Positions 8,579-19,388 of a DNA stretch of 24,340 bases are shown here, one piece after another. The notes beneath the pieces were generated by a model. It was given only the letters and a program-made list of their open reading frames with translations. It was not told where the DNA came from and made no database searches. Position 1 is the stretch's first letter. The number at the start of each line of letters is the position of its first letter. Origin of the DNA: an uncultured bacterium (lineage in GTDB: Bacteria; Verrucomicrobiota; Kiritimatiellia; RFP12; UBA1067); contig CACZAK010000056.1 of assembly GCA_902779075.1 (NCBI GenBank), forward strand, positions 1-24,340, given 5' to 3'. The position numbers and the translations under genes are program-made.

Positions 8579-11500
8579 TTACAACAGAAAACCGCATTCC
8601 GCCCAGTCGCCATGGTCGGACTTGTCGCCGTCGCCACCATCGGTAACGACGAACTTGACGAACGCAACGTCATCGGGCAGCGCCACGTTGAAGTGCCAGC
8701 GCTCCGTTCCGCCGAACATCATGTACGGCGATGTGGCAAGCTCCTTCTCCTTCTTGCCGTCCTTCCCCACGCCCACGATCTTGAAGACGACGCTCGACTG
8801 GTTCTGCACGCGCTGGCTCTCGTCGATGCCGACGACCGCCACCACGCGCTTCCATTCCGTCTTGCGCGCAAATGTGGCGTAGCCCGGCCCGTGGATCGCC
8901 ATTCCGCCCGTGTAGGTACGGTTCTGGATGCAAATTGCGCCGTCGTAGCCCTTTCCAAGACGGATGCCGCCGCCCCAGCCCGTCTTCTGCTTTGCGGGCT
9001 TCAGAGTTTCGATGCGCACCTGCGGCGCAGGCGGCACGGGACCGGGATTTTGCGGCAGGTATTCGCGCGGAATCGGGCGCGAGAGGCGCGGCGGTCGCGG
9101 GGCGACCGCCCTACCGTATGACTCCCCAAACGTAATCCTCCACTTCACCGCGCGCGACTGCGGCACCGTGATCGCAACGCGCACCGTGCCATTCGTCTCG
9201 ACCGCGCACACCTTCACGCCGGCCGCCGCATCCTCAGGTGACACCTCCGCCCGCACGAGCGGAAACACCTGGCCGTCTGTTGTATCCGCCGCGATGACCA
9301 CGCTCTCCGTGGTGCCGCTTACTATATGCTTCGCCGTGCCGGAGAGGACACGCCCCGCCGCATCCCACTTCTCGTCCGCGACGTCCATCCACCCCTGCAG
9401 CACATGGCGCGTGGTGGAGACGACCTGCGGACGCGTCTCGGCCTTCGTGAAGCGGAACATTTCGCATTCAAGACCGTTCATCTCGATCTCGATCGAGTCC
9501 TTCGCGCCGAGGATGCCGAGATATTCGTCGTCCCAGAACGAATGGACGCGCCACTTCGCCTGCGGGTCGAGTCCGAGCGCGCCGTCCGTCGCGCGGTCGC
9601 CGCAGAGCGCGGTCTTCACCGTGGCGCGCTTCTTCTCCGGATTGAAGAGCATCACCTGATGCCACGTCGGCGCGAGCTCGAGGTCATAGACCGTGGGATT
9701 CACCACGCCTTTCTTGAAGGCGTCGATCGGACGCGCCGCGAACGGTTCGCGGTATTCGGGGTAGAGGCGCGAGAGGTCGTGCGTCATCTCCGGCGTGAAC
9801 AGGCGGAAGCTCGTCGCGAGCTCGATGCGTCCGCTCGTGAGGTAGACCGTGGTGAGCATCGAACGGCGGACACCCTCCAACAGCCCGTGGATCGCCTTGG
9901 AGTCGGGATAGTAGTTGAACACCGTGCGCATCTTGAACCAGCGGAGGCCGTCCGTGGTGATCATGTGGGGGTCGAACTTGTTCGAATCGTTCCACGTACG
10001 CTGCGTATCGACAATGCCGGCCGTCACGTCGAGGCAGGGGCGTCCGCACTCGCCGAGGTTGCGTTCGTCGAGGAACGCCTCCTTGCCGAGGCCCTCGCGG
10101 GCGAGCGCGAAGTAGCGGCGATAGACCTGCGTCGCGCTCGCGTGGATGTCGTCGAAGCCGCCCTGCGTGTTGTAGCCCGTCTCGGGGTAGTCGAACTTGA
10201 TGCCCTGCATCCCGTCCTTGCGGAGGCGCTTCCACACGGCGAGCATGTGGTCGGCCATGCCCTTGTCCGACAGGTCGTACGTCACGTAGGGGCGGTGGTG
10301 CATGTGCTTGCGCTCGATGCGGTTCGTGGAGTTGAAGAGCATCCAGTCCCTGTGCGCGATTGCGAAGTCGTCGCTGGGCATTCCCACCTGGATGTAGGTG
10401 TACGGGATGCCGTTCCGCGCCTTGATCGCGGCACACCACTTGGCGAACGTCTCGTAGGGCGGGCGGAGGTGTCTGTACTTCGCCCAGTGCGCGTCGTCGT
10501 ACCAGCCCTGCTCCGTGTTGCCGTGGTCATGGTAGCAGTAGAAGTCGGGCTCGAGGCGCACGCCCACCTTGGAGTACTTTGTGAAGCCCTTCTCGTTCGC
10601 CATGTCGAGTTCCTTCACGAGCGCGGGGGCGTTATTGATGTTGCCGAGCCTGCTGAGCGCGCCCACGGCCCAGCCGCAGAGGAGCGGGAAGTCGTAGACG
10701 TTCGGGTCCGCGCCGTTCGCCTTGCGCATGGCGCGTCCGTACGCCTCGGCGGAGGCGAAGGGGTCGTCCGTCACCGCGTCAATGTAGAACGTGTCGGCGG
10801 AGAAGAGCTGGTTCGTACCGGGCTCCACGAGCACGCCCACCTCGTCGGCGGCGTAGAGCGTGAGCGTACCGTCGTCCAGCTCGGCCATCTTGCCGAAGGC
10901 GTCGTACTGGAGACCACCCGCGACGAGCGTGCGGCGCTTGCCGTCCACGAGACCCGTTACGAGGATGCCGTTCGCGCTGTTGCGCGACAGGCCCGGAACG
11001 AGGTGCGCGGGCTCAGCGCCCGCCGCGCTGTTGATGGTCACGAAACTATCAACGGGCAAGATGCCCGTTGTCCCAGTGGTAGGGCGGTCGCCCCGCGACC
11101 GCCGCTCGCCGAGCCACTTGCCGCCGCGCACGACCGTCGCGCCCATCAGGCGGCGGCGGTACCACACGGGCGTGTTGACGCCGAACGAGGCGATCAGCGC
11201 GGGCGAGTCGTCGTAGAGGGTGTAGGTGTAGACCGGCTCCCATGCGCCCTTGCTGTGCGGGTGCGCGTAGCCGGCGTCATGGAAGCCCCAGCGCGCGCCG
11301 GCCGTGTCGTCGCGCACGGTAAAAGTGATGCGCGCGCCGTGTCCGAAGGCGTCGTTCACCTCGTCCGTCTTCGCCGTGAACGCCGCGCCGCGCTTCACGC
11401 TTGTCGCGCCCACACTGGCGTCGGCGAGCCGAACGCGCCCTTCCGCGTCGCGGATCGTGAACGTGCCGCTCGTCACGTTGAACGACACGGTGACGCGTCC

Positions 11501-11614
11501 GTTGGAAAGCACCACGCACCCGGCTTTATTCTCTATGGCGGACTTAGCCGCCCATGTATGCACAGCCGTCAAGACCACGCACATCAGCGCAAGGAAATAA
11601 CTTGTGGATCGCAT
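8579..11614 (-). CDS. Secreted GH36/GH27-like glycosidase with C-terminal NPCBM domain
   Basis: The 1011-residue protein has a Sec signal peptide (MRSTSYFLALMCVVLTAVHT then WAAKS). An N-terminal beta-sandwich (about 30-300) precedes a TIM barrel (about 310-650). That barrel contains GIKFDYPETGY near 475, where the Asp is the best nucleophile candidate of an alpha-galactosidase-like fold, and LDERNLGECGRPCLDV near 515, likely to carry the acid/base. A beta domain follows, then an NPCBM-type carbohydrate-binding domain (about 875-1011: GGMAIHGPG, ERWHFNVALP, DGGDGDKSDHGDWAECGF). The assignment to the alpha-galactosidase clan is by overall pattern; subfamily and substrate are uncertain. It is the first gene of the carbohydrate operon. 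Residues about 170-188 and 835-841 are encoded by palindromic repeats that interrupt otherwise ordinary sequence, one reading GERRSRGDRPTTGTTGILPV. Confidence 0.7.
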   Translation of the reverse strand: MRSTSYFLALMCVVLTAVHTWAAKSAIENKAGCVVLSNGRVTVSFNVTSGTFTIRDAEGRVRLADASVGATSVKRGAAFTAKTDEVNDAFGHGARITFTVRDDTAGARWGFHDAGYAHPHSKGAWEPVYTYTLYDDSPALIASFGVNTPVWYRRRLMGATVVRGGKWLGERRSRGDRPTTGTTGILPVDSFVTINSAAGAEPAHLVPGLSRNSANGILVTGLVDGKRRTLVAGGLQYDAFGKMAELDDGTLTLYAADEVGVLVEPGTNQLFSADTFYIDAVTDDPFASAEAYGRAMRKANGADPNVYDFPLLCGWAVGALSRLGNINNAPALVKELDMANEKGFTKYSKVGVRLEPDFYCYHDHGNTEQGWYDDAHWAKYRHLRPPYETFAKWCAAIKARNGIPYTYIQVGMPSDDFAIAHRDWMLFNSTNRIERKHMHHRPYVTYDLSDKGMADHMLAVWKRLRKDGMQGIKFDYPETGYNTQGGFDDIHASATQVYRRYFALAREGLGKEAFLDERNLGECGRPCLDVTAGIVDTQRTWNDSNKFDPHMITTDGLRWFKMRTVFNYYPDSKAIHGLLEGVRRSMLTTVYLTSGRIELATSFRLFTPEMTHDLSRLYPEYREPFAARPIDAFKKGVVNPTVYDLELAPTWHQVMLFNPEKKRATVKTALCGDRATDGALGLDPQAKWRVHSFWDDEYLGILGAKDSIEIEMNGLECEMFRFTKAETRPQVVSTTRHVLQGWMDVADEKWDAAGRVLSGTAKHIVSGTTESVVIAADTTDGQVFPLVRAEVSPEDAAAGVKVCAVETNGTVRVAITVPQSRAVKWRITFGESYGRAVAPRPPRLSRPIPREYLPQNPGPVPPAPQVRIETLKPAKQKTGWGGGIRLGKGYDGAICIQNRTYTGGMAIHGPGYATFARKTEWKRVVAVVGIDESQRVQNQSSVVFKIVGVGKDGKKEKELATSPYMMFGGTERWHFNVALPDDVAFVKFVVTDGGDGDKSDHGDWAECGFLL
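9090..9115. repeat. GGCGGTCGC palindrome copy 1 inside the GH36-like gene
   Basis: A 9-base stem GGCGGTCGC (9090-9098), loop GGG, and its complement GCGACCGCC (9102-9110) is followed by CTACC. The same 26 bases occur in reverse orientation at 11078-11103 in the same gene. Here the coding strand reads GRAVAPRPPRL, in a different frame from the other copy. It falls in a linker just before the NPCBM domain. Confidence 0.85.
11050..11103. repeat. Two adjacent palindromes inside the GH36-like gene
   Basis: The first palindrome has stems CAACGGGCA (11050-11058) and TGCCCGTTG (11062-11070) with loop AGA. After a short spacer, the second has stems GGCGGTCGC (11083-11091) and GCGACCGCC (11095-11103) with loop CCC. 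On the coding strand they read GERRSRGDRPTTGTTGILPV in frame, in a loop of the N-terminal beta-sandwich. From memory, peptides like GILPV and RGDRP recur in unrelated PVC proteins, which would fit a dispersed repeat family. Confidence 0.85.
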
Positions 11615-12316: not shown

Positions 12317-12682
12317 CTCATTGCTTTCGCTGCTGGGAGTTTCGGAGTTTTGGAGGATGGGAGAGTTTATCCTAAAAACGCTGTTGAATAATCCCTTCTT
12401 ATTTCTATTAGCCACATAGCCACAAAGAACACAAACACCACAAAGAAGGGATGTTTTTTGACTATAAACGCCGTCCTTTCTGTACGGCAATTCACCCAAT
12501 TGGTGAAAACTTTTAATAGAAGACAGGTCTGTATAATTCACAATACGCACCCATCATTATAAACTTTGTGGCCTTTGTGTTCTTTGTGGCTAAAAACTAG
12601 AATCCAACTGCGACATTTAGGTTTATAAAATATCTCCTTAACTCCAAGACTCCTAATCTCCCAATAGCGAAAGCAAGAGATG
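12317..12682. repeat. 366-bp imperfect inverted-repeat element (MITE-like) in a non-coding stretch
   Basis: The gap 12295-12778 contains no credible gene. Its centre is a large inverted repeat. Outer arms: 12317-12356 (with TTGCTTTCGCT, GGGAGT, TTTTGGAG) pairs with 12639-12682 (reverse complement has TTGCTTTCGCT, GGGAGA, TCTTGGAG). Inner arms: 12409-12446 (AGCCACAAAGAACACAAA) pairs with 12562-12592. Scattered matches such as CCTAAA and CGC-GTTG join the two, so each arm is about 130 bases. The middle (about 12451-12550) has smaller palindromes, including TTCACC-N5-GGTGAA at 12492-12508. It is clearly richer in A and T than its neighbours. Either a MITE or two inverted copies of one dispersed repeat would explain it; the CACAAAGAACACAAAG word looks like common intergenic filler in many genomes. 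Confidence 0.7.
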
Positions 12683-14536: not shown

Positions 14537-14566
14537 AGTATAGCACAATCTACTTCTTTGTGCCGA
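14537..14566 (-). promoter_or_regulatory. panB promoter, leaving almost no leader
   Basis: On the minus strand TCGGCA (14566-14561), an 18-base spacer and TATACT (14542-14537); the ATG follows nine bases after the -10 box. Transcription would start about two to three bases before the ATG. The promoter overlaps the 3' end of the repeat-protein gene. Confidence 0.55.
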
Positions 14567-14975
14567 CCACGCGTCCCATGGCGTCGCGGTAGGTCGTCTT
14601 ACCGTAACGGTCCGTCGTGGCGGTTCCAGTCACGCGCCCCATCGAATCGCGGAATGTCGTCTTGCCGTAGCTATCCGTGGTGGCCGTGCCCGTGGTGCGG
14701 CCCATGGAGTCGCGGAACGTCGTCTTGCCGTAGCTATCCGTGGTGGCACTTCCCTGGGTACGGCCCATCGAATCGCGGAACGTCGTCTTGCCGTAGCGGT
14801 CCTTGGTGGCAGACCCCTGGGTACGTCCCATGGAATCGCGGTAGGTCGTCTTCCCGTAGCGGTCCGTGGTGGCCGAGCCCTGGGTACGCCCCATGGAATC
14901 GCGGTATGTTGCTGCGAACGCGCCGGTCGTCATAATGGACAGTGCCAGCAGACAGATGATTCGGATGTTGTTCAT
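14550..14975 (-). CDS. Small secreted protein of five 21-residue tandem repeats
   Basis: The 141-residue product has a Sec signal peptide (MNNIRIICLLALSIMTTGAF, then A) and then consists entirely of the unit YRDSMGRTQGSATTDRYGKT plus T: five full copies (residues 24-128) and a partial sixth ending GRVVGTKK. Later copies drift to FRDSMGRTTGTATTDSYGKT. The unit alternates Gly, charged and Thr/Ser residues and looks like short beta strands and turns, so a beta-solenoid or flexible surface protein is plausible. No catalytic residue or Cys is conserved. GGAGAC precedes the ATG. I do not know a function; similar R-D-x-x-G-R-x-x-G-x-A repeats occur in uncharacterised secreted proteins. It ends 22 bases before panB and overlaps its promoter. 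Confidence 0.8.
   Translation of the reverse strand: MNNIRIICLLALSIMTTGAFAATYRDSMGRTQGSATTDRYGKTTYRDSMGRTQGSATKDRYGKTTFRDSMGRTQGSATTDSYGKTTFRDSMGRTTGTATTDSYGKTTFRDSMGRVTGTATTDRYGKTTYRDAMGRVVGTKK
14592..14906. repeat. Five coding tandem repeats of 63 bp
   Basis: The DNA repeats every 63 bases in step with the 21-residue protein unit. Synonymous differences between units (for example CGGTAGGT versus CGGAACGT around the Arg-Asp codons) show the array is not freshly expanded. Confidence 0.9.
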
Positions 14976-18149: not shown

Positions 18150-19388
18150 TCACGGCATCTTACTTGCGGCGGCGATGGCTATTTTATCGATGTTGGCGGG
18201 AGCCAGGCCGCGGTAGTTGATCGTAGCCGCACCCTCGCCCGCGATCCATTGGCAGAGGCGGTTCATGGCCGTGGCCTCATGTCGTGCCATTGGCTTGTGT
18301 CCCGGCGTGTAGGGCCAAGCGACCGGCGCGAGCATGAGGAGCCGTCCCGCCGCGCAGGCATCGAAATAGCGGCCCCTCGGCTTCTCCAGCTTCGAGAAGC
18401 CCTTGTTCTGCATGGTCACGAGCGGCAGGCCCTCGGCAAGCGCCTTGCGGGCGATTTCGCGCTCGCCATCCGAAATGCAGGGCGAGATCAAAACTACGCC
18501 ATGCCGCGCGGCGGCGAGCAGCCGGTTGTGCAGCCTTTCGTATTCCGGCGAGGAGAAATCAGCGATTGGATTCCAAGCCGAATCACGCGCTATCTTCATT
18601 CCGCCGCCAGGCTTTGGAATTCGCTTGTAGCCGAAGTAGCGCCGCGAGCATTGCACTTGCACCATCGGCCGCTCCAGCAACGCCCTGTTGCCGATGGCGG
18701 AAAAGTGGAGGGTGGGGGGCGGCTTGGCGGGAGAGGGCTTGGAATCCGGGAGTCCTGTGATCGGCGATATTATCGCCGATAACTGAACTCGAACTCCCCT
18801 CACCACCGTGAATAGCCCCGGCAGGGCGCGCTTTATCGCAAGGCGCAGGGGATTGGCCTTGATATAGGCAATCATCTTTGCAAGCTGCCCTTCGTGGAAA
18901 AGGATCGAATCCTGGAATCCCTCGGCGAAAAGCCCCGCTCCCTCCACGAGCAGATCCGGGCAGAGCCGCCTCGCCGCGCGGTTGCAGCCAATCTTGAATC
19001 CCTTTATCACCTGCCCGAGGTGGCACTCCAGTGGTTCCTTCACCCAGAGGATGCCGTGGAAATGATCGGGCATCACCTGCTTGCAGATGATCTGCACCTG
19101 CGGGTAGAACTGCGGTATCGCCTCCCAGCATTCCTCCACAGCCCTTCCCAGCTCGGTCAATTCGCACCGCGCCGAGTTGGGGAGGGGAGTCCTGTGATCG
19201 CCGATATTATCGGCGATAACTGAACTCCCCACCACCTCCCCCAGCACCTTGCTTCGCCGGTTGGCCAGCACCAAGGTGATCATGTAGATGCACGGCAGGG
19301 AATAATCCCAGCCTTCGCACCGGCGAAGCATGCCGTGAATGGTTTCTTTCAGGTAGCCCTTTCCCTTCTGATCTTCAAGCTCCGTCAT
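18150..19388 (-). CDS. RAYT-like HUH (Y1) transposase with an extra C-terminal domain
   Basis: The 412-residue protein belongs to the IS200/REP-associated tyrosine transposase group. The HUH motif is DHFHG near residue 108 within MPDHFHGILWVKEPL, and the probable catalytic Tyr is near 174 in MIAYIKANPLRLA. Such enzymes cut and join single-stranded DNA at hairpins. A C-terminal region (about 230-405: GVVLISPCISDGEREIARKA, GLPLVTMQ, GRYFDACAAGRLLMLAP) looks like a Rossmann/SLOG-type fold as in DprA-like proteins; similar extensions occur in Bacteroidota proteins of this kind. AGGAGG precedes the ATG by nine bases. Two 39-bp hairpin elements lie within the frame, translated as VIADNIGDHRTP and VQLSAIISPITGLP. 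No IS ends are visible, which fits a domesticated RAYT rather than an insertion sequence. Confidence 0.82.
   Translation of the reverse strand: MTELEDQKGKGYLKETIHGMLRRCEGWDYSLPCIYMITLVLANRRSKVLGEVVGSSVIADNIGDHRTPLPNSARCELTELGRAVEECWEAIPQFYPQVQIICKQVMPDHFHGILWVKEPLECHLGQVIKGFKIGCNRAARRLCPDLLVEGAGLFAEGFQDSILFHEGQLAKMIAYIKANPLRLAIKRALPGLFTVVRGVRVQLSAIISPITGLPDSKPSPAKPPPTLHFSAIGNRALLERPMVQVQCSRRYFGYKRIPKPGGGMKIARDSAWNPIADFSSPEYERLHNRLLAAARHGVVLISPCISDGEREIARKALAEGLPLVTMQNKGFSKLEKPRGRYFDACAAGRLLMLAPVAWPYTPGHKPMARHEATAMNRLCQWIAGEGAATINYRGLAPANIDKIAIAAASKMP
18751..18789. repeat. 39-bp hairpin element, copy 2, inside the transposase gene
   Basis: AGTCCTGTG, then stem ATCGGCGATA, one central T, stem TATCGCCGAT (18760-18780), then AACTGAACT. 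It equals copy 1 at 19188-19226 except for two bases that pair with each other. The host frame stays open through it. Confidence 0.9.
19188..19226. repeat. 39-bp hairpin element, copy 1, inside the transposase gene
   Basis: AGTCCTGTG, stem ATCGCCGATA, central T, stem TATCGGCGAT (19197-19217), then AACTGAACT. Here the outer flanks also pair: GGGGAGT (19184-19190) with ACTCCCC (19224-19230). It is the same size and order as copy 2, 437 bases away. Confidence 0.9.

Follow-up and report, generated by a model that had tools for sequence, protein, structure and literature searches.

Tagged hairpins inserted in frame within the genes of a family of RAYT-like HUH/Y1 transposases

The RAYT-like gene and its protein

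The stretch of DNA analysed here (the window, 24,340 nt from an uncultured bacterium of the Kiritimatiellia) carries on its minus strand a RAYT-like HUH/Y1 transposase gene (18150–19388), a single reading frame of 412 aa within which two hairpins lie in frame. The HUH pair H109/H111 (about 19056–19064, minus strand) and the candidate catalytic tyrosine Y175 (18864–18866, minus strand), whose role is assigned by position only, are conserved in the aligned members, H109 in 93 of 94, H111 in 91 of 94 and Y175 in all 94, and the window family therefore presents the HUH motif and single tyrosine (catalytic by position) that are features of RAYT/TnpAREP proteins. The NCBIfam profile REP_Tyr_transpos matches residues 97–182 of the window protein with an E value of 8e-9, the 35.5 bits lying below the cut-off of 80, and NF047646 (REP-associated tyrosine transposase) was matched by 45/45 aligned members (best E 5.7e-12; window protein 35.5 bits against a cut-off of 80). 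The proposal of an earlier note on this DNA that the gene encodes a RAYT-like HUH/Y1 enzyme is supported.

From about residue 227 onwards (window residues about 227–412) the protein continues into a C-terminal domain of some 185 residues, which has many invariant residues among 45 members and is without a usable Pfam match. Its motifs had suggested a DprA/SLOG domain, for which profile comparison gave no support: the hhalign probability was 0.3% against eight DprA proteins of the same order, the alignments being shallow. The Pfam family GT4-conflict was likewise set aside, as a weak match in 15/45 members (best E 0.0022) which fell below the cut-off in the three proteins with bit scores.

Two hairpins in one reading frame

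Copy A, a 43-bp repeat (18748–18790, minus strand), lies at site 3 (residues about 200–214), the linker that joins the HUH/Y1 part to the C-terminal domain, with its hairpin core at 18760–18780 (ATCGGCGATATTATCGCCGAT on the plus strand) and beside it, at 18752–18759 on the plus strand, the tag GTCCTGTG. Copy B, found by the repeat search as a 43-bp repeat at 19185–19227 (minus strand), has its core at 19197–19217 (ATCGCCGATATTATCGGCGAT on the plus strand) and the same tag at 19189–19196 on the plus strand (GTCCTGTG; CACAGGAC on the minus strand), which is the family-wide tag found de novo (below). It is held within a 51-nt in-frame insertion (site 1, residues about 52–69; 19184–19234, minus strand, the boundaries being uncertain by a few bases) that is absent from the orthologues in genomes G001 and G070. 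On the plus strand, each hairpin lies between GTCCTGTG and AACTGAAC.

The 39-bp copies at 18751–18789 and 19188–19226 differ only at positions 14 and 26, which are positions 5 and 17 of the 21-base hairpin and face each other, and the repeat extends to 43 bp as imperfect palindromes 95% identical between the copies. With up to 3 mismatches allowed, the hairpin was found nowhere else in the window, both places being matched on either strand, and 100 shuffles gave no match. Both copies fold strongly whichever strand is taken, and their internal mismatches are the same, single-strand folding compared with shuffles giving z scores of –4.7 and –7.5 on the minus strand and –5.0 and –6.3 on the plus strand; Rfam returned one chance-level match and nothing more. 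The two copies thus differ at exactly two mutually pairing bases, by a C-G/G-C switch, as the earlier note had read them, and its suggestion that structure was kept while sequence moved is supported; both copies fold far beyond shuffles. The reading frames differ between the copies, with the tag in phase 0 in copy B and in phase 2 in copy A.

The window holds other repeats. Two identical GTAG-foot REPs (GTAG followed by GGCGGTCGC-CCC-GCGACCGCC) at 9090–9114 (minus strand) and 11079–11103 (plus strand) sit inside a large reading frame (8579–11614), and their pattern recurs in 16/16 genomes of the genus, with 141 matches in G001 and 171 in G068 (up to 3 mismatches, some matches being counted on both strands). 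Nested inverted repeats, of 44 nt (80% complementary) and 29 nt (93%), occupy 12321–12676, and a small predicted protein at 14550–14975 (minus strand) consists of 63-base tandem repeats (YRDSMGRTQGSATTD...).

Insertion and turnover in a gene that stays put

Orthologues were compared in G001, the nearest genome by shared words, and in G070, G065 and G059. At site 1, the 51 nt are cleanly missing, in frame, from the G001 and G070 orthologues. At site 3, a full hairpin in G001 is accompanied by one additional left arm and two additional right arms, and G065, G070 and G059 have other arrays. The idea that the hairpins fall as insertions in loops where relatives run straight on consequently holds for copy B; for copy A no closely related empty site appeared among the relatives compared, all of which carry other arrays.

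Among the best 25 of 1298 homologous proteins, site 1 was parsed in 23 (16 different strings, six proteins being empty) and site 3 in 24 (21 different strings), these counts coming from the less strict of two parses, the stricter giving fewer site-3 strings. At site 3, 13 proteins read the array in one frame and 11 in another, so that it is the DNA, not the peptide, which is conserved. We therefore regard it as scarcely credible that selection for an encoded peptide maintains the repeats: they do stay in frame, but the frame differs between the two window sites and divides 13 to 11 at one site among close homologues, and both orientations occur in other members.

The gene neighbourhood is kept throughout. 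Around the gene, the window aligns over 7.9 kb with L046 (the G065 place, by coordinates), 11 kb with L047 (G001), 5.8 kb with L050 (G070) and 2.8 kb with L018 (G059), and considering that the arrays differ within these collinear surroundings, it is the hairpins that are gained, lost or altered, while the gene itself stays where it is. From one related species to another they appear, vanish and increase in number, and the protein remains intact.

Could replication alone account for this, with no enzyme taking part? Template switching and slippage may correct quasi-palindromes, giving paired changes, and multiply half-units, giving arrays; the arrays do have a full hairpin flanked by incomplete left and right arms, and paired changes are what template switching would be expected to produce. 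That array growth and paired changes are possible in this way counts against an explanation by the enzyme. We nevertheless think replication unlikely to be the whole cause, since it leaves unexplained how an entire 51-nt element is cleanly gained or lost, as well as the tag common to unrelated stems, the copies in other genes and the concentration in and next to RAYT genes described below.

A constant tag with changing stems across the family

Relatives of the window gene occur in 113/161 genomes searched within the order; the titles of their records name Kiritimatiellae and Lentisphaerae, several from the rumen, and they are mostly metagenome-assembled. For the survey we used 93 further members with DNA (the 29 loci L017–L045, L003, L005, L051 and L052, plus 60 fetched stretches), which are mutually related and were taken from the better matches plus L003, L005, L051 and L052, not at random. 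A de novo count of 7-mers in the repeated parts of 80 genes found ACAGAAC in 21 genes and CACAGAA in 18 (background 0 for both); GC-rich 7-mers top this list, yet are about equally common in the background. The tag was accordingly written as C[AG]CAG[AG]AC, which is 5'-GTYCTGYG on the other strand, and a tagged hairpin defined as a stem of at least 5 bp beside the tag.

The 93 ORFs contain 136 tags and 102 tagged hairpins, compared with 13.4 and 4.4 in codon-order shuffles, the tag having been derived from the same genes in which it was afterwards counted. ORFs were defined from stop to stop; five of the 102 hairpins are located ahead of the first ATG, and further ones close to the N terminus may likewise lie upstream of the true start. 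A tagged hairpin lies inside the member's own ORF in 47/93, and none by that definition was found in the other 46. Throughout the 93 members the tag is constant and the loop often so, while the stems differ between genes and also within a gene (e.g. CCTGGGC/GCCCAGG and CCTGCGC/GCGCAGG in L122).

Mapped to window residues, 20 of the 102 hairpins fall in the loop after the first strand (45–75), 23 between HUH and Y (115–165), 27 in the linker (190–232) and 17 in the tail, with 11 before the start of the window protein, three in the C-terminal domain and one at residue 109, the last being in L117, where a run of N interrupts the frame. Alignment columns filled by fewer than half of the members hold 87/102. 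On a quick tree the minimum number of state changes was 11 at site 1, nine between HUH and Y and 11 in the linker. One relative, L052 (4629–6128), comes from a record titled uncultured Bacteroidales (RUG324), another phylum by title; its stop-to-stop frame opens with six tagged hairpins, and a tandem repeat distinct from these lies between HUH and Y.

Hairpins with stems of at least 6 bp occur at 0.74 per kb in the ORF and at 0.41 and 0.80 per kb in the two adjacent 250-bp bins, and at 0 to 0.23 per kb in the ten bins listed farther out, up to 1.5 kb. In all, the flanks of the 93 ORFs have nine tagged hairpins within 250 bp upstream and 18 within 250 bp downstream; the window gene's own 250-bp flanks have none. 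Flanking by cognate hairpins, a feature of RAYT/TnpAREP genes, thus holds for the family as a whole. Such concentration in the gene and the first 250 bp on either side would also suit regulatory hairpins, through which the enzyme would bind its own gene or mRNA and repress itself, as would the array at site 3 in 5/5 proteins that are empty at site 1 (six are empty, one being unparsed at site 3). However, no single hairpin position is kept family-wide, the sites changing repeatedly on the tree, which argues against a fixed regulatory element; moreover, 46/93 members are without a tagged hairpin, and orientation varies within one gene (e.g. L029). Self-repression seems to us, if anything, slightly less probable than an origin by replication alone.

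Copies elsewhere in the genomes

The unit GTTCAGTTATCGNCGA (at most one mismatch) was found at 18 places in 9/16 genomes of the genus: by inspection, eight are in the RAYT gene (G001, G059, G065 and G070), five are elsewhere with a hairpin and five are without an evident hairpin. The further copies anticipated by the earlier note thus exist, at five hairpin places outside the RAYT gene in the near relatives G001 (one), G065 (one), G059 (two) and G060 (one), within a transporter-like frame or close to an end of another frame. Those of G001 and G065 occupy the same place of one frame, which from its sequence seems oligopeptide-transporter-like, and they differ by the same paired C-G/G-C switch. 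Both full hairpins of G001 have one stem variant and all three of G065 the other, transporter copies included, while the window has one of each; this uniformity within G001 and G065 hints, in small numbers, at copying between loci or homogenization.

A class with the loop AARAAYG and the tag is found at 26 places in the 16 genomes, 23 of them inside RAYT frames of six genomes. The three others comprise a perfect 7-bp stem in G067, a partial stem in G066 and a place with no stem in G057. The G067 copy (L170, contig C6, match at 24762–24782) is perfect, tagged and situated in a kinase-like frame, no RAYT match being close to it, and slightly weakens the near-confinement of this class to the RAYT gene.

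Another loop class has matches, counted by a tag-plus-loop pattern, in 50/155 genomes. G025, G052, G151, G157 and G160 have 13, 15, 13, 10 and 20 matches, respectively, on several contigs, RAYT contigs included, compared with 0, 0, 5, 1 and 1 for a reversed-pattern control; 3/3 matches in G077, 2/2 in G111 and 4/5 in G081 are at RAYT places. Ten of the G160 matches form an array away from the listed RAYT matches, mostly spaced by 30 bases (contig C26, 14742–15063). Dispersal therefore varies: some genomes have scattered copies, and one hairpin class hardly occurs outside the transposase gene.

A paralogous RAYT-like gene of G001 (L005, 1141–2625, on contig C166) has a repeat type of its own, arranged in tandem and inverted, both around the gene and, in frame, at more than one site within it; this repeat gives 140 matches in G001 and 18 in a control. 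Although 26/30 such repeats fall in a frame of at least 250 aa, 92% of random positions do likewise, and the figure is uninformative about a preference for genes.

Selfish palindromes unrelated to the enzyme might land anywhere and merely be tolerated here, like the Rickettsia palindromic elements found in many genes. This would fit the copies placed within the transporter-like frame or close to an end of another frame, as well as the G067 hairpin in a kinase-like frame, from a class otherwise confined to RAYT genes, and the dispersal of other REP families of the genus. Against this, that one class lies in RAYT frames at 23/26 places in the 16 genomes, and 47/93 RAYT genes carry hairpins of various stems that share a common tag. 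We consider such indifference to the enzyme improbable, well below either replication alone or self-repression.

Comparison with known systems

In-frame REPs inside a RAYT gene are already known in kind. They have been published for RAYT subclass 2.4 (Bertels group 4), for which they are given as a unique feature (PMC6006769), and the earlier note's premise that REPs are normally intergenic and absent from the enzyme's own gene has to be given up to that extent. The hairpins of that subclass resemble ours in being REP-like and in frame, in having flanking copies and in their variable length, and part of the window family also has hairpins between HUH and Y. Subclass 2.4, however, is described there by NH[IFV]H, a median of 194 aa, no tail domain, a GT[AG]G foot and insertions generally between HUH and Y (PMC6006769), whereas the window family has DHFH, about 400 aa (412 in the window), a C-terminal domain and the foot GTYCTGYG, not the GTAG or GTGG foot of REP elements, and has insertions also in the loop after the first strand, the linker and the tail. 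Other RAYT subclasses, with a large C-terminal domain, are without REP association according to the same paper (PMC6006769).

The enzymes of E. coli, Stenotrophomonas and Marinomonas bind foot and hairpin on one strand and cleave nearby (PMC8266576). The HUH/Y1 enzyme, a foot-plus-hairpin substrate (putative here) and, for the E. coli type, a long stem with mismatches that are conserved are shared with the present system; the differences are the GTAG foot and cleavage at CT (or CA), established by experiment there, while the window family is known from sequence alone (PMC8266576). Intragenic GTAG/CGTC REPs and Rickettsia palindromic elements are also palindromes inserted within reading frames, but in many unrelated genes, and the transposase genes have flanking or overlapping, not internal, repeats as far as the consulted part of PMC3733652 extends. 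With IS200/IS605 transposons the family shares an HUH/Y1 enzyme and, putatively, the recognition of single-strand hairpins (PMC6006769). The window gene differs from these in keeping its chromosomal position, and in place of several near-identical mobile copies G001 has one orthologue and one 37%-identical paralogue.

A literature search combining Kiritimatiella with palindromic elements, transposase and REP found no report, and, within a partial coverage of the literature, REPs inside RAYT genes were reported only in PMC6006769. What is new is a different RAYT family with a C-terminal domain of about 185 residues, another tag, further insertion loops and visible turnover.

A possible mechanism and its implications

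Taking as observed the repeats and their tag, the in-frame insertion, the sites and their turnover, the positional stability of the gene and the copies in some other genes, we suggest that the hairpins are probably REP-like elements of this RAYT family, each a constant tag, 5'-GTYCTGYG, joined to a paired stem that changes freely, copied by the enzyme. By analogy with known systems, the enzyme would recognize tag and hairpin as a single strand, GTYCTGYG serving as a foot like that of known RAYT substrates; the HUH/Y1 protein may then nick near the tag and copy or move the hairpin. New copies would land in or near the RAYT gene through a preference for DNA close to the place where the enzyme is synthesized, insertions that leave the frame intact and lie in a surface loop or the tail would persist, and inserted hairpins may grow or shrink as arrays of half-units, probably helped by replication errors on palindromes.

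The filled and empty site between orthologues collinear for kilobases supports this explanation by REP-like elements, as do the excess of the tag, the placement in loops, the concentration in and beside the gene, and the repeated gain and loss on the tree. Counting against it are the 46/93 members without a tagged hairpin, the rarity of the window type elsewhere (five hairpin places in 16 genomes), unlike classical REPs, and a tag that is unlike the GTAG foot. More tentatively, and as a possibility that we would not at present favour, the RAYT gene may be the main home and breeding ground of the hairpins, the enzyme re-inserting and amplifying them in cis at a few loops without loss of frame; the stem code of enzyme and hairpins would then change together gene by gene. 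If so, the gene would supply the enzyme and at the same time store its substrate.

Finally, the spread of REPs is described as poorly understood (PMC8266576). In this family, close relatives can be compared site by site within the gene of the presumed enzyme, at positions that do not shift, for whether a site is filled or empty, how its array has grown and how its stem has switched; this opens the movement of REP-like elements to testing and provides many natural enzyme/hairpin pairs that have one constant tag and variable stems.
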